From positions 27,315 through 91,314 of IMG/VR virus record IMGVR_UViG_3300042892_002114: 64,000 bases of DNA. One strand, given 5' to 3'. The translations under genes were made by a program, and so were the position numbers. The stretch's first letter is position 1; every line of letters begins with the position of its first letter. The notes below the pieces were generated by a model. The model was given only the letters and a program-made list of their open reading frames with translations. It was not told where the DNA came from and did not search any database. Shown piece by piece: positions 2,970-63,651 of the stretch. Source of the DNA: a virus.

Positions 2970-2995
2970 GCTTATAAGTATATATCACCGGTTTA

Positions 2996-10487: not shown

Positions 10488-10494
10488 CTTTAGT

Positions 10495-10522
10495 AGAGTA
10501 TAACCATTGTTTTATTTGTCAA
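10495..10522 (-). promoter_or_regulatory. Early-type promoter, predicted leaderless, of the trifunctional glycan gene
   Basis: TTGACA (10522-10517), 16-nt spacer, TACTCT (10500-10495), then 7 nt to ATG 10487. The geometry equals that of the right-end early genes, suggesting this glycan operon is expressed early. Bases 10523-10679 hold nothing recognisable. Confidence 0.6.
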
Positions 10523-12830: not shown

Positions 12831-15800
12831 TCAAACGTGATTTATATGTGAAAATCCATCAATCTTCCTGATTTCCAGTTGTTTGTCTACCATGTCTCGC
12901 ATTGCGTCAATATGACTTATTATTATAATAAAATCAAAATGGGGCTTCAGATAATTAAATAACGAATGTAACATCGGAAAATTGGATGCATCCAACGCAG
13001 ATACCCCTTCGTCAACTACCAAAAAGTTGGAACGCGGTAGATTGCTGATGTTGATCAAGGATACTCTCAAAGCCAAAGCACTAACAAACTTTTCCATACC
13101 AGAGCATAGTTCCAATGGCCATTTTTTGTCATCATATTTGATATATACATTGACATTCTTGCCATCTGTTTCAATACTCATACTAAACTCAACCATTTGA
13201 GATAATATATTATTTACTTCTTGTTCAATTCTTGGAATGGCATCTGAAATAATTTTATATGGTACGCCATCTTTACCAATTGAAGTTAGATAATATTGAT
13301 AAGCAGCAAGCTCGTTTTCATACTCTTCTACTTTTTTGATTTGTTCTTCGATATTTTTTATTTGGTCTGTCAATGACACTTTGCGGCTATACGCATCCAC
13401 ATATTCTCGCTCAATATTCTTTAGTTTTGATGTTATAGTAGCAACATCATTTTTCAAATCGTAAACAGATGATTCAACCAGTTTGTTGCTTTCTACAATT
13501 TCTTTGGACTTTTCATACAACTCAACCAGATTGTCAATATCAACTATTCTATTAGAGTTTTTAGAAATTAAATTATTGAGATTGGATTTTTCCAGTTCTT
13601 TCTTGGAAATGAATGCTGTGAGTGTATTGATAGTTTCTTTGAGCAGCACACTTTGTTCATATTGAGCCACAAATGGTTCAACTTCTATAATCTGTGTTTT
13701 GATGGTTGATATGGCATCAAACAGTTCTCTTGCATCAGTTTTGTCGGATTCCAAACTATCTTTAGCAGATATAGCATCTTTTACAAACGCATTATCACAG
13801 CAATATTCACAATTTGGATCATATTTGTGGTTGGATAGATGTTCTATTTTCTTGAGTTTTTCTTTGACCACGAGCTTAAATTTTTCCAATTCTTGCTCAA
13901 GACGAGTTTTTTGACGAACAAAACTTGCATGCTTGTCCGATTTTTCTTTTAGATCATCTGGAAATGCAGATAGTTTATTGGAAGCATCCACATATTCTTT
14001 TTTCTTTGACTCTGTGTTTGTGTCAATAACCGAAATAGCATCAACAGATTGACTATTTTTTGTTTCTAAAGTTTCGCGCTCTTTTTTTAGAGCAAATACA
14101 TTTGTTGGCACATTTTCAAGTTTTATAATCTTGGCTTGTTGTTCAACGATTTTATTATCAAGTTCATTCTTCTTTGATGAATATTGATCGCGTTGACCAG
14201 TCAAATCAATAAGTTTGGACTCTGCCAATCCCAAATCATTTTTATTGGACTCAATCTTGACTTGATTGTTTTCTTTGTTGAATGACTTGATGGCACCTGT
14301 TAGTTCTTTTAGTTTGTCATTGCCCTTGGCCACAAGTTTATCAAACACATTTAGACCAATGAACTGACACAACAAATCCTTGCGTTCAGTTTGACCCATT
14401 TCAACAAACGACCCTTGATTGCCTTGTAATGCAAGTGAAGTTAGTACAAAGTCATCATAATCGCCGATATAATCACGAATGATTTCATTTGTGCTTCTGC
14501 GAGCTTCACTGTTGAGGCTAATCTTTTCGTCTTTCTCCATCTTATAGAAGTTTACATCAACTTTTACATTGCCTTTTTTATCTCTGATGCCTTTGCGCTC
14601 AATGATATATTGAATATCATTTATCTCAAATGTGAACTTGCCATGAAAAGACATTTTTTGTGAGTTCATCACATGAGTTGCTTTGAATGCTCTGGCACTT
14701 TTATCAAATGCTGTAAAGCATAATGCGTCCATCAATGATGATTTTCCGCTCGCATTATTTGCGAACAAACCATACACATCTTCCAGTTTAGTAAAGTCAA
14801 TCACATTGTTTTCACCATAACTAAACATATTACTGAACTCAAACTTGATTGGCTTCCAACGAATGTTGCGTGAAGTGTCATCTTTGCTCAAATCAGCATT
14901 GAGGTCTTTGTTGATTTTATGAACAGACTCAAGTGTGCCATCGTCCATAATATCTGGATATTTAGCTTTGAGTGCTTCACTAATAAGTTTATTTTGATAA
15001 TCAACATTGCCAATCTGACTCAAGTTGGCAGCAGCTTGAACACTTACAACTTTAGAAGCATCGTCGCCATCAACTCGCATATAAATAATGTCGCTGATTT
15101 CATGCGTCTTTTTGATTTCATTTACTACCTTTTTTAGTTCAGTAGCAATAGTTTCTTTGCAACGCACACGAAGTTTTGGCTTCTTGGGCATTGTGCTTAT
15201 ATCAGTCATCAACTTGCCGTCATCAATATCAATAGTGAAATAACCATAATCATTTGGTATTTCTACATGCTTGTATGCTCTGTTCTTTATATCCCACAAA
15301 CAAATGCCGTGACCAAGCAATGCTTCGCCATGATTTTGTTGAATAACCGAACCAGCATAACGAATGATTGGTTTTTCTGATACTGGATCGCACATTTGCA
15401 GATTTTGTGCCAAATGAATATCACCCAACAATGCCATATCATGACCATCAAACATATCATTCATGATACTCTTGTTGGTTACGGTATAACCCACATCAGT
15501 CTTGGCGTCAAATACACCACCATGAAATAAAGCAATCTTTGTATCAAACTCCGTCTTGATTTTCTTGGTCACATCTTTCATTTTTATAAATGAAGTATGG
15601 TCGGTGAAAATAGACATGTTATTTATAAGAATATTAGCAAATGAATACAACTTGCTTTCTTTTAGATAATAAAGATTGTCATGAGCCAAATTTTCTACAA
15701 TAGGAGTCAAACTATCCAATCTCGTTGTGTTTGTGAGAAGACAATCATGATTGCCCGCAATAACAATCGTAGGACGCAAATCAGATAAACTCTTTAGAAG

Positions 15801-16034
15801 GTCGCTCATGAGTTGAACACATTCGGGCGAAAGGTCAACTTTGCTGTGTGTGAGGTCTCCCGCTATAACAACCAATGTGTTTACTGGTGTCTTTTTAACC
15901 TCTTCATACACCTTCCCAAACACTTCACGATATTCTTCATGGCGTTTGGTCAAACGAATATGAATGTCCGCCATATGAACAATATAATCCACTCTGGTTA
16001 GATTGGTGTTTAGTTTCTCAAATGTATCTATCAT
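12831..16034 (-). CDS. Single-chain Mre11-Rad50 (SbcD-SbcC, gp47-gp46) recombination nuclease/ATPase
   Basis: 1067 residues. Residues 1-290 are a calcineurin-type phosphoesterase with the Mre11/SbcD motifs in order: ADIH (Asp23, His25), IAGDLTH, IAGNHD, LFHGG and LGDIH. From about 400 the chain becomes Rad50/SbcC: Walker A NNASGKSS near 425, a long coiled coil with zinc-hook CEYC near 743, the second half of the coil, signature LELCSGMEK, and Walker B FLVVDEGVSALD near 1004. T4 encodes these as separate gp47 and gp46, which process DNA ends in recombination-dependent replication. The fused protein should do both jobs. Its start overlaps the endonuclease stop by 4 nt. Confidence 0.93.
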   Translation of the reverse strand: MIDTFEKLNTNLTRVDYIVHMADIHIRLTKRHEEYREVFGKVYEEVKKTPVNTLVVIAGDLTHSKVDLSPECVQLMSDLLKSLSDLRPTIVIAGNHDCLLTNTTRLDSLTPIVENLAHDNLYYLKESKLYSFANILINNMSIFTDHTSFIKMKDVTKKIKTEFDTKIALFHGGVFDAKTDVGYTVTNKSIMNDMFDGHDMALLGDIHLAQNLQMCDPVSEKPIIRYAGSVIQQNHGEALLGHGICLWDIKNRAYKHVEIPNDYGYFTIDIDDGKLMTDISTMPKKPKLRVRCKETIATELKKVVNEIKKTHEISDIIYMRVDGDDASKVVSVQAAANLSQIGNVDYQNKLISEALKAKYPDIMDDGTLESVHKINKDLNADLSKDDTSRNIRWKPIKFEFSNMFSYGENNVIDFTKLEDVYGLFANNASGKSSLMDALCFTAFDKSARAFKATHVMNSQKMSFHGKFTFEINDIQYIIERKGIRDKKGNVKVDVNFYKMEKDEKISLNSEARRSTNEIIRDYIGDYDDFVLTSLALQGNQGSFVEMGQTERKDLLCQFIGLNVFDKLVAKGNDKLKELTGAIKSFNKENNQVKIESNKNDLGLAESKLIDLTGQRDQYSSKKNELDNKIVEQQAKIIKLENVPTNVFALKKERETLETKNSQSVDAISVIDTNTESKKKEYVDASNKLSAFPDDLKEKSDKHASFVRQKTRLEQELEKFKLVVKEKLKKIEHLSNHKYDPNCEYCCDNAFVKDAISAKDSLESDKTDARELFDAISTIKTQIIEVEPFVAQYEQSVLLKETINTLTAFISKKELEKSNLNNLISKNSNRIVDIDNLVELYEKSKEIVESNKLVESSVYDLKNDVATITSKLKNIEREYVDAYSRKVSLTDQIKNIEEQIKKVEEYENELAAYQYYLTSIGKDGVPYKIISDAIPRIEQEVNNILSQMVEFSMSIETDGKNVNVYIKYDDKKWPLELCSGMEKFVSALALRVSLINISNLPRSNFLVVDEGVSALDASNFPMLHSLFNYLKPHFDFIIIISHIDAMRDMVDKQLEIRKIDGFSHINHV

Positions 16035-56526: not shown

Positions 56527-56799
56527 TCAGACCGTCGGCTCTTGCCAGTAAACCTTGCTGAAGGTCGTGCCCCAAGTGTCGGGACGAACGGCGATGGCCT
56601 TGAAGACCAAGGAGTTGTCGTGGCTCGGGTCAAAGACCTGATAGCCATATACCGGCCCCTTGTTCATGTCGCTGTCGCGCAGTATGTTGACGGCATAGCC
56701 CACCCGCTTGGCCTCCTTGACCAGATTCTTGATGAAGCTGGTGGAGCAGACGCGGGTGAAGGTTGACCGAACAGGAGCAGTGTTGATGGTGGAGTTCAT
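56527..56799 (-). CDS. Early small protein, 90 residues, GC-rich gene
   Basis: Product MNSTINTAPVRSTFTRVCST...; FIKNLVKEAKRVGYAVNIL suggests a small alpha/beta fold. Base composition is clearly more GC-rich than the next genes. Downstream lies the GC-rich hairpin (56499-56521), which may end transcription. No family recognised. Confidence 0.6.
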   Translation of the reverse strand: MNSTINTAPVRSTFTRVCSTSFIKNLVKEAKRVGYAVNILRDSDMNKGPVYGYQVFDPSHDNSLVFKAIAVRPDTWGTTFSKVYWQEPTV

Positions 56800-56806
56800 G
56801 TTCTAA

Positions 56807-56834
56807 ACAATGACGATTATTTATAAAAAGTAAA
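56807..56834 (-). promoter_or_regulatory. Early promoter, TTTACT/CATTGT
   Basis: Spacer 16, -10 CATTGT, 7 nt to ATG 56799. The -35 is poorer than in other copies. Confidence 0.65.
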
Positions 56835-56845
56835 GCACAAAGCAC

Positions 56846-56869
56846 AAAAAAGGGGCTTTTTATTGCCCC
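56846..56869 (-). terminator. Terminator of the 56879-57202 gene
   Basis: Stem GGGGC/GCCCC (56865-56869 with 56852-56856), 8-nt loop, six T on the minus strand. Confidence 0.7.
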
Positions 56870-56878
56870 CTGTTTTAT

Positions 56879-57202
56879 TTAAATGATGCCCGCAACAAGC
56901 ATCCAACTTGGACTACCTTCGCTGTCATAGCCGTCTGGCTCAACTACCTGACCAAGCATTGACTTGGCAACACCATCGTCGCTCCACTTTTCCATGGTCT
57001 TGAGCGAAGGAGCCTTGAACTTAGTGAAGTAGCGTGGCAGACTAGAGCAACGCAGCTTCACTGTCACAGGAACGCCGCCAGCACTGCCACCAGCCAGTGC
57101 GCAAACAGTGCCACCATCCTTGAAGATTACATTTAATTTTGTGCCAACAGGAATAACCAGACCGTTCTTGAACTTGATTTCTTTGTTATTAACGAGGTTC
57201 AT
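56879..57202 (-). CDS. Early small protein, 107 residues
   Basis: N-terminal beta strands (FKNGLVIPVGTKLNVIFKDG) and a Gly-rich turn (ALAGGSAGGVPVTVKL), then KAPSLKTMEKWSDDGVAKS. The alternating strands suggest a small beta-barrel of the kind seen in other phage early proteins. Followed by a terminator, so monocistronic. Confidence 0.6.
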   Translation of the reverse strand: MNLVNNKEIKFKNGLVIPVGTKLNVIFKDGGTVCALAGGSAGGVPVTVKLRCSSLPRYFTKFKAPSLKTMEKWSDDGVAKSMLGQVVEPDGYDSEGSPSWMLVAGII

Positions 57203-57209
57203 GTTATAG

Positions 57210-57237
57210 ATAGTGTCTTACTTTTTATAAATGTCAA
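57210..57237 (-). promoter_or_regulatory. Early promoter, TTGACA/CACTAT
   Basis: Spacer 16, -10 CACTAT, 7 nt to ATG 57202; near-perfect -35. Confidence 0.8.
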
Positions 57238-57500
57238 CCAATTATTTTATCCAACGCGCTGATTGCAAGCAAATGACTTTCTTTACATTGCTTTGCACGC
57301 AGTTGCAAGTGCTCAACACTAACATTCTTATAAAAATTATCTATAATATATTTGTTTTTGTCGCTCACATCTCCGTTGCTAATGTCATGAATGCATTCAG
57401 CACGACTATATTCATAACTGTCATAATCCAAAGTGTCCATTTCCGAAAGTAAAATGTCTTGCAAAGCCCAAGGCAAATCAAAGAATGATGTTGGTTTCAT
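57234..57500 (-). CDS. Early small protein, 88 residues
   Basis: Acidic, helical (FFDLPWALQDILLSEMDTLD; YIIDNFYKNVSVEHLQLRA). AT-rich, unlike the gene downstream. The stop overlaps the next -35 box, showing how tightly the promoters are packed. Function unknown. Confidence 0.6.
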   Translation of the reverse strand: MKPTSFFDLPWALQDILLSEMDTLDYDSYEYSRAECIHDISNGDVSDKNKYIIDNFYKNVSVEHLQLRAKQCKESHLLAISALDKIIG

Positions 57501-57507
57501 GTTCTAA

Positions 57508-57536
57508 ACTATGAGTTAGATTTTATAAAATGTCAA
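57508..57536 (-). promoter_or_regulatory. Early promoter, TTGACA/CATAGT
   Basis: Spacer 17, -10 CATAGT, 7 nt to ATG 57500. Confidence 0.75.
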
Positions 57537-57739
57537 GGATTTTTATGGTCGCCAACCCAGATTCCAATGGGCGACTTGGAACGATCATATGCGCCATTCG
57601 CGCCGATAGGATAAATAAGATCAAGCGCATTTATGCCAGAAAATCGACCAGTTACACCGTTCATAACATCACAGCTAATGTCTCCACCGTGAACTTTCTT
57701 GATGTCGTTGAGTTGCTTGATAAGGTCTTTAAGTTTCAT
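57533..57739 (-). CDS. Early small protein, 68 residues
   Basis: Start at MKLKDLIKQLNDIKKVHGGD, not the longer frame whose first codons are the promoter. The pattern LKDLI-x2-L ... GD ... DVMNGVTG resembles small phage proteins that start with an amphipathic helix followed by strands. Unknown role. Confidence 0.6.
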   Translation of the reverse strand: MKLKDLIKQLNDIKKVHGGDISCDVMNGVTGRFSGINALDLIYPIGANGAYDRSKSPIGIWVGDHKNP

Positions 57740-57746
57740 GTTATAA

Positions 57747-57774
57747 ATACTGACAGAGTTTTTATAAATGTCAA
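57747..57774 (-). promoter_or_regulatory. Early promoter, TTGACA/CAGTAT
   Basis: Model copy: spacer 16 containing TTTATAAAAA, -10 CAGTAT, 7 nt to ATG 57739. Confidence 0.85.
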
Positions 57775-57786
57775 ACCAAATTTCAA

Positions 57787-57993
57787 TCAATCCATACGCT
57801 TAACAATTACTTTAGTTTGTTTCATTATGGATGAAAAAACGACCTGACTCAGTCTTTCGTTCCTCTGAATTTCGCCCAGTGTATTTGGGTTAACAACTCG
57901 TTGTGCTCCCTCTTGGCTAATACCATAACCGTTTGCGGCATAAAATGAACCAAGCAAAATATAGTTTAGAGAATAGACGTAAATTAAGTTCAT
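57787..57993 (-). CDS. Early small protein, 68 residues
   Basis: Start MNLIYVYSLNYILLGSFYAA at ATG 57993. The first 20 residues are hydrophobic and could be a signal peptide or membrane helix. The remainder is polar (GEIQRNERLSQVVFSS). Its -10 (TAGTAT, 58001-58006) overlaps the upstream stop and lacks a good -35, so it may be co-transcribed. Confidence 0.55.
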   Translation of the reverse strand: MNLIYVYSLNYILLGSFYAANGYGISQEGAQRVVNPNTLGEIQRNERLSQVVFSSIMKQTKVIVKRMD

Positions 57994-58003
57994 GTTATAA
58001 ATA

Positions 58004-58159
58004 CTAAAATAGGGTGCTGCCAATGTATGAGAGAATCAATCCAATAGAGCACAACAGTAATGCCAATTTACGGTATTTACCTTGCCCAATAGAATGGTTG
58101 TAAATAAAAAAGCCAGCGATAGAGAGCAAGCAGCCGAATAAGAGCAGGAATGATTTCAT
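58004..58159 (-). CDS. Early small membrane protein, 51 residues
   Basis: MKSFLLLFGCLLSIAGFFIY and a second hydrophobic stretch (LALLLCSIGLILSYIGSTLF) predict two membrane helices joined by a short basic loop (GQGKYRK). Candidate inner-membrane takeover or superinfection-exclusion protein by plan only. Confidence 0.6.
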   Translation of the reverse strand: MKSFLLLFGCLLSIAGFFIYNHSIGQGKYRKLALLLCSIGLILSYIGSTLF

Positions 58160-58166
58160 GTTATAA

Positions 58167-58194
58167 ATACTGACAGAGTTTTTATAAAAGTCAA
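58167..58194 (-). promoter_or_regulatory. Early promoter, TTGACT/CAGTAT
   Basis: Spacer 16, -10 CAGTAT, 7 nt to ATG 58159. Confidence 0.8.
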
Positions 58195-58394
58195 GCCTTT
58201 GGAACAAGCACACCTTCTTTATTTCGTGAACGCTTTAAAGCATACCACGTCCAAGCGAATGGAAGAGCGAACGAAAGTAGAATTACAATTAACTTAAGAG
58301 TGATGGTTTCTTTCTTGAACGCTCTGATTGAGTAGTTTACATTCGATTTAAAATGCGCTTTGAAAGAGGTGTCTGTGGTTCGCGTGTAAATCAT
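58191..58394 (-). CDS. Early small membrane protein, 67 residues
   Basis: One hydrophobic helix (LKLIVILLSFALPFAWTWYAL) follows a polar N-terminus of about 30 residues; the tail is basic (KRSRNKEG). Single-pass topology likely, with the basic end in the cytoplasm. It begins ATGATT, one of the few without Asn/Lys at position 2. Confidence 0.6.
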   Translation of the reverse strand: MIYTRTTDTSFKAHFKSNVNYSIRAFKKETITLKLIVILLSFALPFAWTWYALKRSRNKEGVLVPKA

Positions 58395-58401
58395 AAGAGA
58401 G

Positions 58402-58429
58402 ATAATGACTTACTTTTTATAAATGTCAA
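58402..58429 (-). promoter_or_regulatory. Early promoter, TTGACA/CATTAT
   Basis: Spacer 16, -10 CATTAT, 7 nt to ATG 58394. Confidence 0.8.
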
Positions 58430-58641
58430 GCAGCCTTTTCACCTTTGATAAACAGCAATTCTTTGACCTGCTTGATCTTGACAGTTTGACCCTCCTCGGC
58501 CAGAATTTTTGCTTCTTTCATAGCAGATTTGAGTGTTTTGAGTGTGGTGTCCAAGGTTTCATCGTCATATTCTCCCCAACCACTTGTGGCACCAATCGTG
58601 TAGAGTTCAAAGTATGTCTTGGTAAGTTTCTTGGATTTCAT
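58426..58641 (-). CDS. Early small protein, 71 residues
   Basis: Begins with a beta segment (YFELYTIGATSGWGEYDDE) and continues as a charged helix (LKTLKSAMKEAKILAEEGQT), ending in strands. This layout suggests a small ferredoxin-like or DUF-type fold. No recognised family. Confidence 0.6.
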   Translation of the reverse strand: MKSKKLTKTYFELYTIGATSGWGEYDDETLDTTLKTLKSAMKEAKILAEEGQTVKIKQVKELLFIKGEKAA

Positions 58642-58648
58642 GTTATAA

Positions 58649-58677
58649 ATACTGACTTACTTATTATAAAATGTCAA
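58649..58677 (-). promoter_or_regulatory. Early promoter, TTGACA/CAGTAT
   Basis: Spacer 17, -10 CAGTAT, 7 nt to ATG 58641. Confidence 0.8.
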
Positions 58678-58892
58678 GCACTCAATGCAAAATTGCTGCC
58701 AAATTTTCCAGTAACATTGCTGCGTTCAAAAGCAACAATGTCATTGTTCACAGAAAAAACAATTGAACGTATGATACCATATTCATCAAATTGAATGTTC
58801 AACAGTTTATATGATGTATTGGGTGCTACAACAATCCAAGTGTTGTTGTAGGTTTTCAAATTGGCGACATTGTTGAAGATAACAAATTTCAT
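58674..58892 (-). CDS. Early small protein, 72 residues
   Basis: Strongly beta-patterned (MKFVIFNNVANLKTYNNTWI; IIRSIVFSVNNDIVAFERSN), Asn-rich, without Cys or charge clusters. No family recognised. Confidence 0.6.
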   Translation of the reverse strand: MKFVIFNNVANLKTYNNTWIVVAPNTSYKLLNIQFDEYGIIRSIVFSVNNDIVAFERSNVTGKFGSNFALSA

Positions 58893-58898
58893 ACACTT

Positions 58899-58927
58899 AG
58901 ATTGATCTATTATTTATAATAAGTCAA
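58899..58927 (-). promoter_or_regulatory. Early promoter, TTGACT/CAATCT
   Basis: Spacer 17, -10 CAATCT, 6 nt to ATG 58892, the one gap that differs by a base. Confidence 0.65.
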
Positions 58928-58931
58928 GAAA

Positions 58932-59096
58932 TTACTTCTTTTGATTTTCTAGAATCTCCTTTAGTTCCTTGGCGAAATCAACGACCCAGTATTCATCCAA
59001 TCCAAGATCGCCCTTGGCCCAATGATCGCCGCCGAGACGCTTTGCGTGCTTAATGAAAAGCTTATCTACCAGTTCTTGAAAATCGTTGTCGTTCAT
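58932..59096 (-). CDS. Early small protein, 54 residues
   Basis: ATG 59096 to TAA 58932. Helix-rich (DFQELVDKLFIKHAKRLGGD; EYWVVDFAKELKEILENQKK). The codon use is less AT-rich than its neighbours. Supported by a promoter at the standard distance. Function unknown. Confidence 0.65.
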   Translation of the reverse strand: MNDNDFQELVDKLFIKHAKRLGGDHWAKGDLGLDEYWVVDFAKELKEILENQKK

Positions 59097-59103
59097 AAAA
59101 GTA

Positions 59104-59131
59104 ATAGTGAACTAAATTAAAAAAAAGTCCA
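59104..59131 (-). promoter_or_regulatory. Early promoter, TGGACT/CACTAT
   Basis: Spacer 16, -10 CACTAT, 7 nt to ATG 59096. Confidence 0.65.
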
Positions 59132-59142
59132 GACAAAAGTAT

Positions 59143-59178
59143 AAAAAAAAGAGGGAGTCGCCACCACGCGACTCCCTC
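59143..59178 (-). terminator. Strong terminator of the 59205-59558 gene
   Basis: 11-bp perfect stem (59151-59161 with 59168-59178), 6-nt loop, run of eight T on the minus strand. Confidence 0.9.
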
Positions 59179-59204
59179 AACTATGAACACTCTCAACCTA
59201 AATC

Positions 59205-59558
59205 TTAGTGGTGGTTATAACAAGAAATTGGCTTGCCACCCCACACATAAAAGTTGCTGTAGCTGTTGTTCTTGACGCGATAGCCGTCGCCATCAGCAGT
59301 AAACCGCTTGGTTTCAGTATCACCCTTGATGCGATCCGTAGCAGGCGTGCTGATCCATTCCATGCCACCGCCGCCACTGTATTTGTTGTCAGCAGGCAAG
59401 CGCACAATCTTGACGCTTTTGCCAGTTACGGCCACAACCTTGGCCCACGACGCAATGCTGGCTTCATAGCCACTGATGCTGACCAATATGTCGCCAACCT
59501 TGGGACCATTGACAACCGTGGGCTTGTTTACCAGATCAGGAGAAAAGATAGAGTTCAT
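59205..59558 (-). CDS. Early small protein, 117 residues, SH3/KOW-like beta-barrel
   Basis: VGDILVSISGYEASIASWAK and VVAVTGKSVKIVRLPA resemble a small phage family of KOW/SH3-type barrels; DGYRVKNNSYSNFYVWGGKP is the C-terminal hairpin. The gene is GC-richer than its promoter and neighbours. A strong terminator follows. Role unknown; family resemblance is tentative. Confidence 0.65.
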   Translation of the reverse strand: MNSIFSPDLVNKPTVVNGPKVGDILVSISGYEASIASWAKVVAVTGKSVKIVRLPADNKYSGGGGMEWISTPATDRIKGDTETKRFTADGDGYRVKNNSYSNFYVWGGKPISCYNHH

Positions 59559-59565
59559 GTTGTAA

Positions 59566-59593
59566 ACTATGACTGGTTTTTATAAAAAGTCGA
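59566..59593 (-). promoter_or_regulatory. Early promoter, TCGACT/CATAGT
   Basis: Spacer 16, -10 CATAGT, 7 nt to ATG 59558. Confidence 0.75.
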
Positions 59594-59601
59594 GACAATA
59601 A

Positions 59602-60018
59602 TCAAATGTTGTTGAGAATATTTTGACTGTTGACGAATGTCTCATCGCCATTGTCATGCATAATCTTAACGCTAAAATCCTTGGCATCTAGACCATCAAA
59701 CAAAGATGTGTTCAAAAACATATGTGGAAAAGATTCAATCAATTCAACAAATCCACTGTTAAATGATGGCGTATGAATCCAACGACCATTGCTGAGTTTA
59801 TTAAACTCCTCACTATGAGTGCCTTTCACAAGCAAATTGGACCATTCCATAAGTTTTTGTTTATCAACAGATGCATCTCCACAAAATTTGCCAGAATTAT
59901 ATGGAAGATTGAAATACTCAAGCAGCATTTCATGCATGATCTCAGATTGATAGTCAGACAGACTTTGCTTGATCTCGTCGATTGTCAGAGCAATTGTGGT
60001 GTGCTTGGTGATCTTCAT
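59602..60018 (-). CDS. Early protein, 138 residues
   Basis: The largest of the early set. N-terminal helix-turn pattern (ALTIDEIKQSLSDYQSEIMH), then LLEYFNLPYNSG and an acidic end (IMHDNGDETFVNSQN). No recognised domain. Confidence 0.6.
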   Translation of the reverse strand: MKITKHTTIALTIDEIKQSLSDYQSEIMHEMLLEYFNLPYNSGKFCGDASVDKQKLMEWSNLLVKGTHSEEFNKLSNGRWIHTPSFNSGFVELIESFPHMFLNTSLFDGLDAKDFSVKIMHDNGDETFVNSQNILNNI

Positions 60019-60025
60019 GTTTAGA

Positions 60026-60053
60026 ATACTGACAGAGTTTTTATAAAAAGCAA
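60026..60053 (-). promoter_or_regulatory. Early promoter, TTGCTT/CAGTAT
   Basis: Spacer 16, -10 CAGTAT, 7 nt to ATG 60018. Confidence 0.8.
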
Positions 60054-60062
60054 CAGTATTTT

Positions 60063-60350
60063 TTAGTCAAACGCAGGATGACTGGCATTTGCAACATAGA
60101 TATGAAAATGTGCTGTGCTGCGTGGAGCACGATAATCATTCAAATTTACGACATTAACATATTTCATTTCGTTGCGCGACTTGACCCAGCTCAATAGCTT
60201 GTCAACACTAGCATATGATTCCACAGCCCAAGCCACACGGCTGGCTCCACCTCTTGCTCCACCCCAGCCGCTCATGCACTTGTCCTTGGCAACGATTGCC
60301 CACTTGTGAGTGATTTTCTGAGATTCATTGCGATCATCTACGGTTTTCAT
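60063..60350 (-). CDS. Early small protein, 95 residues
   Basis: Start MKTVDDRNESQKITHKWAIV at ATG 60350 (the longer frame includes the promoter). A Gly-rich loop (KCMSGWGGARGGASRVAWAV) is followed by SVDKLLSWVKSRNEMKYVNV, a helix and strand. No family recognised. Confidence 0.6.
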   Translation of the reverse strand: MKTVDDRNESQKITHKWAIVAKDKCMSGWGGARGGASRVAWAVESYASVDKLLSWVKSRNEMKYVNVVNLNDYRAPRSTAHFHIYVANASHPAFD

Positions 60351-60357
60351 GTTATAT

Positions 60358-60385
60358 ATACTGACTATTTTTTTATAAAAAGCAA
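60358..60385 (-). promoter_or_regulatory. Early promoter, TTGCTT/CAGTAT
   Basis: Spacer 16, -10 CAGTAT, 7 nt to ATG 60350. Confidence 0.8.
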
Positions 60386-60393
60386 CTCTATTT

Positions 60394-60525
60394 TTACTGC
60401 CACTTGTTGTTTCTGTTCTTGCGAGTGTAGGCACCTTTGCCTTTTTTGGTTTTGTGAATCTGATTGCCCAGATTCATGCCAGAGCTGAACACGCTGCGAA
60501 GTTTGATTGGCGAGTTGGTCTTCAT
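60394..60525 (-). CDS. Early tiny basic protein, 43 residues
   Basis: ATG 60525 to TAA 60394. About a third of the residues are Lys, Arg or His, concentrated in HKTKKGKGAYTRKNRNNKWQ, so nucleic-acid or ribosome binding is likely. It stands behind a standard promoter. Confidence 0.65.
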   Translation of the reverse strand: MKTNSPIKLRSVFSSGMNLGNQIHKTKKGKGAYTRKNRNNKWQ

Positions 60526-60532
60526 GTTGAAT

Positions 60533-60561
60533 ACACTGACAGAGTTTTTATAAAAGGTCAA
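60533..60561 (-). promoter_or_regulatory. Early promoter, TTGACC/CAGTGT
   Basis: Spacer 17, -10 CAGTGT, 7 nt to ATG 60525. Confidence 0.7.
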
Positions 60562-60743
60562 GAAGCTTCTTCGGTATCTTGATCAACGTAACTGTATGAA
60601 ATACAATCAATTTCGTTCCAAAACTTATTCAAGGCTTTGATCTCGGCCTCAATTTTGGACTCTGCTGAAACGGTATATGTGCGTTCTACCTGTTCACGCG
60701 GGTCATAAACACTTTGAGCGTAGATGGTGGTGATGAAGTTCAT
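60558..60743 (-). CDS. Early small protein, 61 residues
   Basis: Start MNFITTIYAQSVYDPREQVE at ATG 60743. RTYTVSAESKIEAEIKALNK forms a strand-helix unit; the end is acidic (SYVDQDTEEAS). No family recognised. Confidence 0.6.
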   Translation of the reverse strand: MNFITTIYAQSVYDPREQVERTYTVSAESKIEAEIKALNKFWNEIDCISYSYVDQDTEEAS

Positions 60744-60750
60744 GTTTATG

Positions 60751-60778
60751 ACTATGGCAGAGTTTTTATAAATGTCAA
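60751..60778 (-). promoter_or_regulatory. Early promoter, TTGACA/CATAGT
   Basis: Spacer 16, -10 CATAGT, 7 nt to ATG 60743. Confidence 0.75.
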
Positions 60779-60996
60779 ACAGATATTGGTGCTGGACGAC
60801 CAGTGGCGTCATCAAAAATATAATTCACTGCATCTTCTGATTGTGCAGCACGACTTTTGATTGGAACATACCAACGAGAAAGCAGCTCATGCCCAGCTTT
60901 TTCAGCTTCAATTTTGGTGGCAAATCGCAGAGCATTGCTTGCCCAAGATTTTTCGCCTTGATACATTGTGCAAACTTCAGTTTTCCAAGATTTCAT
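60775..60996 (-). CDS. Early small protein, 73 residues
   Basis: Start MKSWKTEVCTMYQGEKSWAS. NALRFATKIEAEKAGHELLS reads as a strand-helix similar in plan to the 61-residue neighbour (both have a T/S-x-I-E-A-E motif), so the two may be distant paralogues. Confidence 0.6.
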   Translation of the reverse strand: MKSWKTEVCTMYQGEKSWASNALRFATKIEAEKAGHELLSRWYVPIKSRAAQSEDAVNYIFDDATGRPAPISV

Positions 60997-61003
60997 ATTT
61001 AAG

Positions 61004-61031
61004 ATAATGTATGAGTTTTTATTAAAAGCGA
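61004..61031 (-). promoter_or_regulatory. Early promoter, TCGCTT/CATTAT
   Basis: Spacer 16 with TTAATAAAAA, -10 CATTAT, 7 nt to ATG 60996. Confidence 0.75.
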
Positions 61032-61034
61032 GAC

Positions 61035-61199
61035 TTATTTTACTTTTTTGGATGATAGTTGAGCTTTCCAAGCAGCAACAACTGCATCAACTGCGAACTT
61101 ATGCTCGTCTTCTGTGATTCTCGTAGCAGCACAAGCTTCGTCCAGCTCAAACACAATGTTGCCAATTTCAACGCCAGTGATAATTGATTTAGAGTTCAT
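61035..61199 (-). CDS. Early small protein, 54 residues
   Basis: Start MNSKSIITGVEIGNIVFELD at ATG 61199; then a helix (EDEHKFAVDAVVAAWKAQLS) with a basic end. No family recognised. Confidence 0.6.
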   Translation of the reverse strand: MNSKSIITGVEIGNIVFELDEACAATRITEDEHKFAVDAVVAAWKAQLSSKKVK

Positions 61200-61206
61200 A
61201 AATAAG

Positions 61207-61234
61207 ATAATGTATGATTTTTTATTAAAAGCGA
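61207..61234 (-). promoter_or_regulatory. Early promoter, TCGCTT/CATTAT
   Basis: Spacer 16, -10 CATTAT, 7 nt to ATG 61199. Almost identical to the copy at 61004-61031, pointing to recent duplication. Confidence 0.75.
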
Positions 61235-61245
61235 GACTTATTTTT

Positions 61246-61443
61246 TCAATCAACAAAGTAAATCACTTTGTCAGAGTGCCCTACGTCATAACTCAGTCTC
61301 ATTTTCATAAGCCGTTCAGAGTTCTTGTCGAGATAGTCGTGGAACTCTTCATATGAGCAATCAGTAAACCGCATCCAAATTCTCAATCGAAGTTGAGTAG
61401 GAAACCGGCCAAGCTCTCTCTCAAAGTTGATGATAATTTTCAT
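61246..61443 (-). CDS. Early small protein, 65 residues
   Basis: MKIIINFERELGRFPTQLRL then RFTDCSYEEFHDYLDKNSER, a charged helix-rich product with one Cys. No family recognised. Confidence 0.6.
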   Translation of the reverse strand: MKIIINFERELGRFPTQLRLRIWMRFTDCSYEEFHDYLDKNSERLMKMRLSYDVGHSDKVIYFVD

Positions 61444-61450
61444 ATTTAAA

Positions 61451-61478
61451 ACAATAGCAGAGTTTTTATAGAAAGCGA
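61451..61478 (-). promoter_or_regulatory. Early promoter, TCGCTT/TATTGT
   Basis: Spacer 16, -10 TATTGT, 7 nt to ATG 61443. Confidence 0.75.
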
Positions 61479-61481
61479 GAC

Positions 61482-61700
61482 TTATTTTAAATTTTCAACG
61501 GTCCAACCACGCTGCCAAGCATCCATGAGCTTCAACAGTTGCTTGGTAAATTTCCAATCAGCTGTGCTGTATTTCTTGATGAAATAACTAAACTCAACAT
61601 CAGATGCACAAGCACACAAGATGCCACGCTGAAAAGCGGCTGCACCCATAACAGTTGCTTTGTTCAAGTCGTTCTGAAAATCTGCTTTGGTGAGGTTCAT
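61482..61700 (-). CDS. Early small protein, 72 residues
   Basis: Helical (LTKADFQNDLNKATVMGAAA; WKFTKQLLKLMDAWQRGWTV), two Cys in ILCACASDVEF. No family recognised. Confidence 0.6.
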   Translation of the reverse strand: MNLTKADFQNDLNKATVMGAAAFQRGILCACASDVEFSYFIKKYSTADWKFTKQLLKLMDAWQRGWTVENLK

Positions 61701-61707
61701 ACTTAAA

Positions 61708-61735
61708 ACAATGTCAGAGTTTTTATAAAAAGCAA
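61708..61735 (-). promoter_or_regulatory. Early promoter, TTGCTT/CATTGT
   Basis: Spacer 16, -10 CATTGT, 7 nt to ATG 61700. Confidence 0.8.
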
Positions 61736-61736
61736 G

Positions 61737-61763
61737 AAAAAAGGGGAGGTTTTTTATGCCTCC
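61737..61763 (-). terminator. Terminator of the 62295-61791 two-gene operon
   Basis: GGAGG/CCTCC stem (61759-61763 with 61745-61749), A-rich loop, T run on the minus strand. Confidence 0.65.
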
Positions 61764-61790
61764 TCTTTTCTTATGAACCCAACGAAAAAA

Positions 61791-61982
61791 TCAAAAGTCA
61801 AGAAATTCTGGTTCAATAAGTGATACATTTATAGCATCATCAAACAGCAGCACATTGTCACCATTGTCTTCATCAACCCAATATGTCAATGACATATTTT
61901 GATTTTCATGAATAACTGCAACAGTGCCTGTGCTTGTTGAACAGTTATGAGGAAATGATAATCTGTCGCCTACAAGATACAT
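61791..61982 (-). CDS. Early small protein, 63 residues
   Basis: ATG 61982 lies one base from the upstream stop; the longer frame overlaps that gene. The product MYLVGDRLSFPHNCSTSTGT has beta-strand character and an acidic loop (YWVDEDNGDN). No promoter of its own, so it is the second gene of an operon. Confidence 0.6.
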   Translation of the reverse strand: MYLVGDRLSFPHNCSTSTGTVAVIHENQNMSLTYWVDEDNGDNVLLFDDAINVSLIEPEFLDF

Positions 61983-61983
61983 T

Positions 61984-62295
61984 TTACTCGTCCTCCCCAC
62001 CAAAGCTGTCAATCGACGGGCAGTAGTTTTCCTCGTCATCATAGCCAGCGGAACGCAGAGCGTCAGCATCAGCCTCGCCGTCGTGGCGAAACTGGTCAGG
62101 CTCGTTGTCATCACCAGAGCTACCGAAATCAACAATGCCTTGCTCATGCAACAAGTCCACGAGATAATCAACATCATCGGTGTTGATTGTCATATTGTCA
62201 TAATCAACGCTATACTGGGGCGTGCTGTCAAGCTCCAGAGCAGTGACGGCGAGCAGAAACAGACCCTTTTCGGTGAAGGTGATTGAGGAGTTCAT
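61984..62295 (-). CDS. Early acidic protein, 103 residues
   Basis: Helical start (TFTEKGLFLLAVTALELDST), then DYLVDLLHEQGIVDFGSSGD and a strongly acidic tail (DDEENYCPSIDSFGGEDE). A DNA-mimic type inhibitor is possible but unproven. The gene is GC-richer than most neighbours. Confidence 0.6.
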   Translation of the reverse strand: MNSSITFTEKGLFLLAVTALELDSTPQYSVDYDNMTINTDDVDYLVDLLHEQGIVDFGSSGDDNEPDQFRHDGEADADALRSAGYDDEENYCPSIDSFGGEDE

Positions 62296-62302
62296 ATTTA
62301 AA

Positions 62303-62330
62303 ACAATGACAGAATTTTTATAAAAAGCAA
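62303..62330 (-). promoter_or_regulatory. Early promoter, TTGCTT/CATTGT
   Basis: Spacer 16, -10 CATTGT, 7 nt to ATG 62295. Confidence 0.8.
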
Positions 62331-62337
62331 GACCTAT

Positions 62338-62529
62338 TTATTCTTCGGAGGTTTTGGACTTACATGGCAAAGGGCGGACAATTTCCAGATCAACACGCCA
62401 CTCATAAGTGGCATCATTTCCATAAGCAATCTTGACCAAATTACTTCCATCTCCGTAGTGGCCAACAACCATACACTGAAAGCCCTTGAACCTGCCCTTA
62501 TGTGGGATGACGATTGAATGAAGTTTCAT
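62338..62529 (-). CDS. Early small protein, 63 residues
   Basis: Start MKLHSIVIPHKGRFKGFQCM at ATG 62529. VVGHYGDGSNLVKIAYGNDA and YEWRVDLEIVRPLP give the strand-turn-strand plan of a small SH3-like barrel. No family named. Confidence 0.6.
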   Translation of the reverse strand: MKLHSIVIPHKGRFKGFQCMVVGHYGDGSNLVKIAYGNDATYEWRVDLEIVRPLPCKSKTSEE

Positions 62530-62536
62530 GAGTAAT

Positions 62537-62564
62537 ACTATGACTATTTTTTTATAAAAAGCAA
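62537..62564 (-). promoter_or_regulatory. Early promoter, TTGCTT/CATAGT
   Basis: Spacer 16, -10 CATAGT, 7 nt to ATG 62529. Confidence 0.75.
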
Positions 62565-62567
62565 CTC

Positions 62568-62795
62568 TTATTTTGCCAATTTGCTGTTCACAACGTGTTT
62601 GATCAGGTCGTTGAGACCCTTGCCCACATACTTGCAACGCTTGAGCAAGTTTTTGCTGTCATAATTCGGAAAGCCACTTTCTTCTTCTATCGAATCGGGT
62701 GAAAGAAAAACCCACTTATTTTCTGCCCTGAGATACAGATAAATAAAACCTTCTTTATTTTCAACGTAATAACCGGGTTTTGGTGATTTGTTCAT
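62568..62795 (-). CDS. Early small protein, 75 residues
   Basis: KPGYYVENKEGFIYLYLRAE forms strands; NLLKRCKYVGKGLNDLIKHV is a basic helix. No family recognised. Confidence 0.6.
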   Translation of the reverse strand: MNKSPKPGYYVENKEGFIYLYLRAENKWVFLSPDSIEEESGFPNYDSKNLLKRCKYVGKGLNDLIKHVVNSKLAK

Positions 62796-62802
62796 ATTTA
62801 GA

Positions 62803-62830
62803 ATAATGTCAGAGTTTTTATAAAAAGCAA
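62803..62830 (-). promoter_or_regulatory. Early promoter, TTGCTT/CATTAT
   Basis: Spacer 16, -10 CATTAT, 7 nt to ATG 62795. Confidence 0.8.
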
Positions 62831-62833
62831 CAC

Positions 62834-63079
62834 TTATTTATCAAAAGTTGCGATTGGCTCAATGCCACCCACCAAGCTGCGAACAAAATGACATTTCAGC
62901 GTGTCGCTGTTCCAAGCAGTAAAAGTGAATTTGCGACCATCATAGCTCAACACTTTTTTGCTGATCTTCTTTACATCATCCCAACCATTTGGAACATCAA
63001 CAGTAAGAAATTCACGCTGAACATCTGGACGATATGAGTAAACAACTGAAATGTCGTTGGGAAGAATGGTTGCTTTCAT
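62834..63079 (-). CDS. Early small protein, 81 residues
   Basis: Beta-rich (MKATILPNDISVVYSYRPDV; KVLSYDGRKFTFTAWNSDTL), one Cys near the end. No family recognised. Confidence 0.6.
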   Translation of the reverse strand: MKATILPNDISVVYSYRPDVQREFLTVDVPNGWDDVKKISKKVLSYDGRKFTFTAWNSDTLKCHFVRSLVGGIEPIATFDK

Positions 63080-63086
63080 ATTTAAA

Positions 63087-63114
63087 ACAATGACAGAATT
63101 TTTATAAAAAGCAA
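63087..63114 (-). promoter_or_regulatory. Early promoter, TTGCTT/CATTGT
   Basis: Spacer 16, -10 CATTGT, 7 nt to ATG 63079. Confidence 0.8.
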
Positions 63115-63117
63115 CTC

Positions 63118-63246
63118 TTATTTTTTCTTCTTTGGCACACTAACAATGTATTTTCCACTGCGTTCAGAGAAAGCATAATTGCTTGTTGCTAAATTTTTCT
63201 TGGCAAATTCAATAACTTGCTGCTTTGTGAATCGTTTGAGTTTCAT
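63118..63246 (-). CDS. Early tiny basic protein, 42 residues
   Basis: ATG 63246 to TAA 63118. MKLKRFTKQQVIEFAKKNLA, then a strand and a Lys-rich end (SVPKKKK). Its upstream region has CACAAT 8 nt from the ATG but no TTTATAAAAA spacer, so its promoter differs from the others. Confidence 0.6.
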   Translation of the reverse strand: MKLKRFTKQQVIEFAKKNLATSNYAFSERSGKYIVSVPKKKK

Positions 63247-63297
63247 GAATAAAAATTGTGCGTGAGTTGATATGCGCACCCCATCATTGAAATTTAT

Positions 63298-63591
63298 TTA
63301 CACAATCTCAACGTCCTTGAAATATCGCTCAGAACGATGCAGAATTTCACTCCAATCATTTTCTACGCTACTTGGAATTTCATCATCAAAGTGCGGAAAC
63401 GCTTCGGCACGACCAAGCGCAATGTTCAACGCCAGTTCTGGGTTGAACTTGTCGCCTCGGTTGGTGGCACACAGGCTGTAGCCAAAGCCAACTGTATTGT
63501 CGTGCCGCTTCACAGCGACGACCACGCCGACTTTTTGCCGTCGCCGGTTGCGAACATACTGAAAGATAGTGTTGTTAGGAGGATTGATCAT
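63298..63591 (-). CDS. Early protein, 97 residues
   Basis: Start MINPPNNTIFQYVRNRRRQK at ATG 63591; the longer frame reads into its promoter. A basic cluster (RNRRRQK) is followed by strands (KVGVVVAVKRHDNTVGFGYS) and a helix (ELALNIALGRAEAFP). No family recognised. It alone has a real leader. Confidence 0.6.
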   Translation of the reverse strand: MINPPNNTIFQYVRNRRRQKVGVVVAVKRHDNTVGFGYSLCATNRGDKFNPELALNIALGRAEAFPHFDDEIPSSVENDWSEILHRSERYFKDVEIV

Positions 63592-63623
63592 AGGTATTGT
63601 GTTGTTGTTTGACTGAAATAATG

Positions 63624-63651
63624 ATAGTAGCAGAGTTTTTATAAAAAGCAA
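63624..63651 (-). promoter_or_regulatory. Early promoter with leader, TTGCTT/TACTAT
   Basis: Spacer 16, -10 TACTAT ending 32 nt before ATG 63591. This copy fixes where the -10 box lies in the other copies. Confidence 0.75.

Follow-up and report, generated by a model that had tools for sequence, protein, structure and literature searches.

Promoters at a set distance from the start codon point to leaderless mRNAs in the small-gene block of a large T4-related phage

Why should nearly every gene in a block of small phage genes carry a promoter of its own, set at an almost invariant distance from the start codon? The question is raised by the right-hand 64 kb of the 91,314-bp IMG/VR virus contig IMGVR_UViG_3300042892_002114 (contig G000; this stretch of 64,000 nucleotides (nt) is the window hereafter). 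In it, 22 small genes on the minus strand, running from 63.1 to 56.8 kb, each follow a -35-like hexamer, 16-17 nt, a hexamer of the form YANNNT, a further 6-7 nt and ATG. An original prediction, made from the letters of the window, described more than 20 near-identical promoters placed to give leaderless mRNAs. We consider it very probable that nearly all of the small genes are transcribed from promoters of their own and that the RNA starts at the ATG or within 3 nt of it.

The array in the window and among related phages

The promoter array is confirmed, and its 22 members were re-derived with coordinates (Table 1). The distance from the -10 hexamer to the ATG (d, in nt) is exactly 7 in 21 modules and 6 in the remaining one (ATG 58892), as originally described, and the -10/-35 pairs with their 16-17 nt spacers were recovered at all 22 starts. 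The -35 hexamer is most often TTGCTT (seven modules) or TTGACA (six), then TCGCTT (three) and TTGACT (two), with TTGACC, TCGACT, TGGACT and TTTACT seen once each. The -10 hexamer begins with CA in all modules but one (TA, at 61443), and TTTATAAAAA or a near variant is found in every module except 59096. Counting the starts with AA directly after the ATG returned the same 23 of 25. Two parts of the prediction needed amendment: the promoters are near-identical within G000 but not across the phage group, and the two exceptions named, 57993 and 63246, are correct but form an incomplete list, as 61982 and 63591 also deviate. The array extends past the contig end, with further copies in the sibling contig G004, and the promoter of gene 63984 lies beyond the window, judged by its orthologue in contig G005.

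The geometry of the array is neither a product of chance nor local to the window. A position weight matrix that left out the 7-nt gap and the ATG gave 55 plus-strand sites of at least 10 bits in G002, a 297-kb relative, compared with 5 on both strands of shuffled sequence; an ATG-blind search of G000 found d = 6 or 7 at 22 of 34 sites, compared with 1.1% for random positions. These two comparisons exclude chance. Six related contigs together hold 102 unique sites that score above 15 bits, and in 69 of them the ATG stood exactly 7 nt on. A motif search across related genomes with a fixed distance to the ATG had been proposed as a check on the prediction. The core searched for, TTG(A/C)(C/T)N-16/17-YANNNT, was blind to both the ATG and the spacer sequence. 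Ten phage contigs showed a sharp peak at d = 6-9, confined to one strand. Measured to the next real ATG, there were 19 sites at d = 7 in G000 (background 0.28 per distance), 21 at d = 6 and 19 at d = 7 in G007 (background 0.16), and 11 at d = 7 and 13 at d = 9 in G011 (background 0.25). The opposite strand gave no peak, and the profile of Microcystis phage Mel-JY01 was flat. When the exact core was required at d = 7, four of the ten contigs had 6, 15, 21 and 7 matches on the array strand, while T4, cyanophage ACG-2014i, Flavobacterium phage immuto, Rhodothermus phage RM378 and the huge phage LR756508 had 0-1 per strand; the same core with d = 20, as a control, gave 0-3 matches everywhere.

All contigs compared are fragments, and G000 is itself a fragment of a large T4-related myovirus. 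The proteins that place it in the T4 lineage are a baseplate wedge-like protein and a fused SbcD/SbcC-like protein encoded in the window, together with the T4-type family B DNA polymerase and tail sheath of G002, which also encodes a tape measure and shares 72 reciprocal best hits with G000 at a median identity of 76.7%. The fused protein (12831-16034, minus strand) combines SbcD-like and SbcC-like domains in 1067 amino acids (aa). The nearest named phage found is Mel-JY01, with 42.5% identity in the polymerase and 29 best hits to G000 at a median identity of 37%; megablast returned no named phage as a DNA relative, and the group that carries the array is known from environmental sequence alone. 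Phage S21, sought as a clue to the host, was absent. G002 holds about 36 tRNA genes and a predicted transfer-messenger RNA gene with an unusually long tag (AKRNLAKVSFLSVRKNSGAETLVAA), located at 85.8-100.3 kb, 196-198 kb and 107.8 kb.

The transcription start point

The structural RNA genes of the relatives reveal what kind of signal the motif is. In G002 it occupies 196924-196953 upstream of a tRNA-Met (tRNA from 196976) and 197401-197430 upstream of a tRNA-Lys (tRNA from 197464). The motif is likewise found ahead of a conserved, structured RNA of roughly 95 nt (fold z -3.86; G002:200332-200426, L029:332-426) in G002, G004 and G005, for which an Rfam scan of the stretches concerned reported no family except tRNA. 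The 10-bp closing helix of this RNA, GTCAATCAAC...GTTGATTGAC, starts exactly at the eighth nucleotide past the hexamer, which is the position held by the A of the ATG in the coding cases. As a ribosome signal is needless ahead of RNA genes, the motif acts as a promoter, and a role in translation only is ruled out. A further array-type promoter in G002 (complement, about 187100-187370) points out of a divergent region, towards a non-coding RNA that may be structured (GCACGGTGGAAGTAGGAGAGCG...).

For sigma70 polymerase, the usual start point is 7 or 8 bp beyond the -10, and purines are strongly preferred there (PMC5101437). Pooled over the ten contigs, d falls between 6 and 9 in 253 of 313 unique sites, and the nucleotide at position 7 past the -10 depends on where the ATG stands. 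Sites with d = 7 (ATG at +8) have C or T there in 145 of 155 cases, and those with d = 9 (ATG at +10) have A in 27 of 33, where 2 nt and the ATG follow (C-ACG-ATG and C-ATC-ATG, for example); many of these d = 9 sites come from the single contig G011 and are not independent. The A at position 7 implies a leader of 3 nt at such sites. This switch argues that the start signature is fixed at positions 7-8 whether the ATG is there or not. In our reading, sites with d = 6 or 7 give leaderless RNAs and those with d = 8-10 give leaders of 1-3 nt.

The distance is held while the sequence around it is free. The 7-nt discriminator has a mean pairwise identity of 0.31-0.51 at constant length, and codons 2-6 one of 0.32-0.40. 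No similarity at E<=0.01 was found among 20 array proteins, so that one promoter type stands before unrelated genes; Pfam gave no match for the ten array proteins tested, and PHROG matches are weak and all of unknown function. Orthologues in G007 and G008 (33-67% identity) keep the motif with differing discriminators: those of gene 62834-63079, 50% (G007) and 67% (G008) identical, retain TTGACA and TTTATAAAAA upstream, and that of gene 57234-57500 in G007 (57% identical) retains d = 7 with another discriminator. The orthologue of gene 59205-59558 in G011 (92% identical) reads TTGACA-AATTAAAAAAAGTAGC-CATAGT-TAGCACC-ATG; here TTTATAAAAA has been replaced and the geometry from promoter to ATG kept. 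The use of the motif by RNA genes, the held distance, the switch at position 7 and the G011 promoter without TTTATAAAAA are four independent tests, and all bear out the prediction that the start point falls on the A of the ATG. Transcription with leaders of 0-3 nt is strongly supported by this comparative evidence, and the 5' ends of the transcripts would lie at or near the ATG.

The missing Shine-Dalgarno (SD) sites contribute little to this argument. The frequency of SD sites at gene starts is close to shuffled background in G000, G002, G006, G007 and G009, within and outside the array, and G008 has a modest excess outside it. In G002 the regions upstream of genes are A-rich, and 63% of genes have T at -1. 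Translation in the host probably begins for the most part without SD. Since SD sites are lacking throughout the phage, their absence is not specific to the array and is no proof of leaderless mRNA, for which the evidence is the position of the promoter.

Several observations weigh against a start at the ATG from a promoter of the sigma70 type. Sites within one clade share descent and are not independent. The pyrimidine at -1 is to some extent a general trait of these phages, found at about 74% of G002 genes. Position 1 of the -10 is mostly C, not T, and a plain sigma70 consensus scan, with 23 sites where 17.2 were expected, gave no clear excess. Leaders of 23-32 nt follow several promoters of this same type, so a leaderless start is no strict requirement.

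With these points counted, the array would be the small-gene block, probably expressed early, of a large T4-related phage. Nearly every gene would have a sigma70-type promoter, in which TTGAC(A/T) or TTGCTT is separated by 16-17 nt, with many T/A runs, from a -10 that reads YANNNT and is often of the extended (TGn) type. Transcription would begin 7-8 nt beyond this -10, at a purine preceded by a pyrimidine. For most genes this purine would be the A of the ATG, so that the mRNA begins pppAUG, and in a minority it would lie 1-3 nt upstream. Such messages, leaderless or nearly so, would be translated from a 5'-terminal AUG without SD. Few terminator-like hairpins were seen for the 22 promoters; together with the lack of SD sites, this makes it likely that good use is made of only the first AUG in a message, a limit that would account for one promoter per gene.

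Polymerase and competing explanations

Which polymerase reads these promoters is less clear. Position 1 of the -10 at d = 7 is C in 135 sites and T in 13, whereas A at position 2 and T at position 6 were required by the search. The sigma70 scan finds no clear excess because CANNNT and TTGCTT miss the consensus, and this result, with the C at position 1, leaves the form of the polymerase uncertain. Among 84,980 bacterial and archaeal genomes, none matched the strict pattern of promoter and ATG; relaxing the pattern gave 14 scattered matches, in unrelated phyla and with no taxon cluster. The exact form thus seems to be the phages' own. A multisubunit phage polymerase was rejected as a candidate, as no PF00562 (Rpb2_6) match was found in six contigs with positive controls detected, although the contigs may be incomplete and subunits of the phiKZ type too diverged. 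Searches for a single-subunit polymerase (PF00940) and for MotCF gave no match, and neither did their positive controls. Our best guess is the host holoenzyme, perhaps modified.

A modified polymerase, directed by a phage sigma factor or by an activator in the manner of T4 MotA/AsiA, might start at another offset and leave leaders of a few nucleotides. The C at position 1 of the -10, the strongly conserved spacer block and the likeness of the TTGCTT variants to a MotA box would all fit. However, the MotA box sits 12 +/- 1 bp from the -10 in T4 (PMC2988021) and the distance here is 14 bp, MotCF was not matched (with the limit of its control given above), and both the start of the structured RNA and the switch at position 7 indicate the usual 7-8 nt. 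We hold this reading to be unlikely. A MotA-type middle promoter as such was rejected on this spacing and on the TTGAC variants, which lack CTT.

It could also be that TTTATAAAAA is the true -10, with a start near CTCTG, leaders of about 13-20 nt and CANTNT as a translation-initiation context; the original prediction had named a variant of this, with a 20-nt leader, as its own refutation. TTTATAAAAA is the most conserved block in G000, and in phages that lack SD sites a leader without SD is not odd. Yet G011 and site 59096 have no TTTATAAAAA and the same spacing of -35, -10 and ATG, and on these two TTTATAAAAA was rejected as the -10. Moreover, TTGAC directly adjoins TTTATAAAAA, which as a -10 would lack a -35; the -10-like hexamer also stands ahead of tRNAs and the structured RNA; and position 7 shifts with the placement of the ATG as a start point predicts. 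Taken together, these observations make a -10 role for TTTATAAAAA very improbable.

A mobile or copied cassette of 40 bp, its fixed distance owed to common descent and not to selection for leaderless starts, would suit the close likeness of sites within one contig (spacer identity up to 0.87, in G005), but is scarcely credible given that the spacer end, discriminator and codons after the ATG have low identity at fixed length, that the spacer alternates between 16 and 17 nt while d stays near 6-7, that the longer gap (d = 9) comes with A at position 7, and that the array genes are not paralogous, the last of which rules out paralogous gene cassettes.

Exceptions, known systems and significance

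The starts that depart from the pattern are of several kinds. The leader type of 63591 is conserved in G002 and G005. More broadly, a few array-type promoters with CAA-rich, SD-less leaders of 24-32 nt (for instance TCAGTCAAACAACAACACAATACCT) are conserved across window positions 63592-63623, G002, G004 and G005. ATG 61982 lies 1 nt past the upstream stop (TAA-A-ATG), a coupled start, and gene 57787-57993 is likely coupled to its upstream gene too. The promoter of the open reading frame (ORF) at 63118-63246 may have been lost in the window, since G011 has an upstream stretch in common with this region, CAACTCACGCACAATTTT, and then a full promoter. Outside the array, the 7-nt geometry recurs without the AT block at 10488-10522 (minus strand; TTGACA-16-TACTCT-7-ATG), before an 850-aa glycosyltransferase/methyltransferase gene, and at about 2970-3004 (minus strand; TTGATA-16-TATACT-7-ATG), before a 1306-aa ORF.

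Table 1. Putative promoters, exceptional genes and terminator-like hairpins of the array (promoters as -35, spacer length, -10, gap, start codon)
Position	Strand	Feature	Gene (product length)
63592..63651	-	TTGCTT-16-TACTAT, 32 nt to ATG 63591; CAA-rich SD-less leader	63298-63591 (97 aa)
63118..63246	-	ORF without promoter, directly past small terminator-like GTGCG...CGCAC hairpin; unexplained exception	(42 aa)
63080..63114	-	TTGCTT-16-CATTGT-7-ATG	62834-63079 (81 aa)
62796..62830	-	TTGCTT-16-CATTAT-7-ATG	62568-62795 (75 aa)
62530..62564	-	TTGCTT-16-CATAGT-7-ATG	62338-62529 (63 aa)
62296..62330	-	TTGCTT-16-CATTGT-7-ATG	61984-62295 (103 aa)
61701..61735	-	TTGCTT-16-CATTGT-7-ATG	61482-61700 (72 aa)
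61444..61478	-	TCGCTT-16-TATTGT-7-ATG	61246-61443 (65 aa)
61200..61234	-	TCGCTT-16-CATTAT-7-ATG	61035-61199 (54 aa)
60997..61031	-	TCGCTT-16-CATTAT-7-ATG	60775-60996 (73 aa)
60744..60778	-	TTGACA-16-CATAGT-7-ATG	60558-60743 (61 aa)
60526..60561	-	TTGACC-17-CAGTGT-7-ATG	60394-60525 (43 aa)
60351..60385	-	TTGCTT-16-CAGTAT-7-ATG	60063-60350 (95 aa; PHROG match, unknown function)
60019..60053	-	TTGCTT-16-CAGTAT-7-ATG	59602-60018 (138 aa)
59559..59593	-	TCGACT-16-CATAGT-7-ATG	59205-59558 (117 aa)
59151..59178	-	Strong intrinsic-terminator-like hairpin within array	
59097..59131	-	TGGACT-16-CACTAT-7-ATG, without TATAAA	58932-59096 (54 aa)
58893..58927	-	TTGACT-17-CAATCT-6-ATG (6-nt case)	58674-58892 (72 aa)
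58642..58677	-	TTGACA-17-CAGTAT-7-ATG	58426-58641 (71 aa)
58395..58429	-	TTGACA-16-CATTAT-7-ATG	58191-58394 (67 aa)
58160..58194	-	TTGACT-16-CAGTAT-7-ATG	58004-58159 (51 aa)
57787..57993	-	Gene without complete promoter of its own; ATG 10 nt past upstream stop	
57740..57774	-	TTGACA-16-CAGTAT-7-ATG	57533-57739 (68 aa)
57501..57536	-	TTGACA-17-CATAGT-7-ATG	57234-57500 (88 aa)
57203..57237	-	TTGACA-16-CACTAT-7-ATG	56879-57202 (107 aa)
56850..56871	-	Intrinsic-terminator-like hairpin directly upstream of last promoter	
56800..56834	-	TTTACT-16-CATTGT-7-ATG	56527-56799 (90 aa)

A second motif of these phages provides a possible internal contrast. ATATTTATA is strongly enriched on the coding strand upstream of structural genes (31 found and 4.8 expected in G002; 13 and 1.3 in G000), at a variable distance from the ATG. 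It looks like a late promoter, and is to be compared with the late TATAAATA of T4.

Comparison with known systems places the array between two of them. Leaderless genes of Deinococcus-Thermus and Actinobacteria have a -10 TANNNT adjoining the ORF (PMC3160421, PMC12340547, PMC4633059), and for Deinococcus-Thermus, leaderless expression from a -10 some 6-7 bp ahead of the ORF has been tested by experiment (PMC12340547). The array shares this distance, its occurrence at many genes and the dispensability of SD, but it lies in phages, with a strong -35, a conserved AT spacer, mostly CANNNT in place of TANNNT, and about one promoter per small gene. The early promoters of T4 (PMC2988021) are likewise many, strong and of the sigma70 type, with extra conserved positions and TGn, and serve small genes. 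Set against them, the array has the -35 and the 16-17 nt spacer, TGn in 10 of the 22 window sites, and a -10 that deviates at position 1. Unlike the array phages, T4 shows no excess in the geometry search, and its transcripts have leaders with SD sites. The array thus resembles the -10-adjacent leaderless genes of bacteria combined with the many-promoter strategy of T4.

Other phage systems are more distant. Cluster O mycobacteriophages have three predicted leaderless promoters per genome (PMC4351075), whereas the array phages have dozens, with comparative evidence for the start point. The Start-Associated Sequence of Cluster K, a 13-bp GGGATAGGAGCCC without -35/-10 geometry (PMC3203893), is also a short repeated motif that adjoins many start codons and is conserved across relatives; the array element differs in being a promoter with a free discriminator, and the 13-bp GGGATAGGAGCCC is absent from the aligned array starts. 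In the late promoters of phiKZ, TATG with the start at its last base (PMC4666361), a promoter element again overlaps an ATG-like sequence in a large phage, but they are read by a phage multisubunit polymerase, for which the array contigs gave no Rpb2_6 match. No comparable phage array was found in the literature searched, which did not cover subscription papers and preprints.

Leaderless mRNAs of phages are usually seen as isolated cases; here, several diverged phages seem to have entire gene blocks arranged for them, and the start point of transcription can be read from sequence alone. We suggest tentatively, at rather less than even odds, that these phages run a regulon of dozens of genes on leaderless mRNAs from a phage-specific promoter (TTGAC, T/A-run spacer, CANNNT) set before each gene, bypassing SD recognition and polycistronic translation entirely and possibly giving phage messages an advantage on host ribosomes early in infection. 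The array would explain why small genes carry a promoter each, and it gives a practical rule by which such phages can be searched for small genes. If confirmed, it would supply a natural data set of about 250 sites for the co-evolution of start-site choice and start codon, and a phage model of SD-independent translation.

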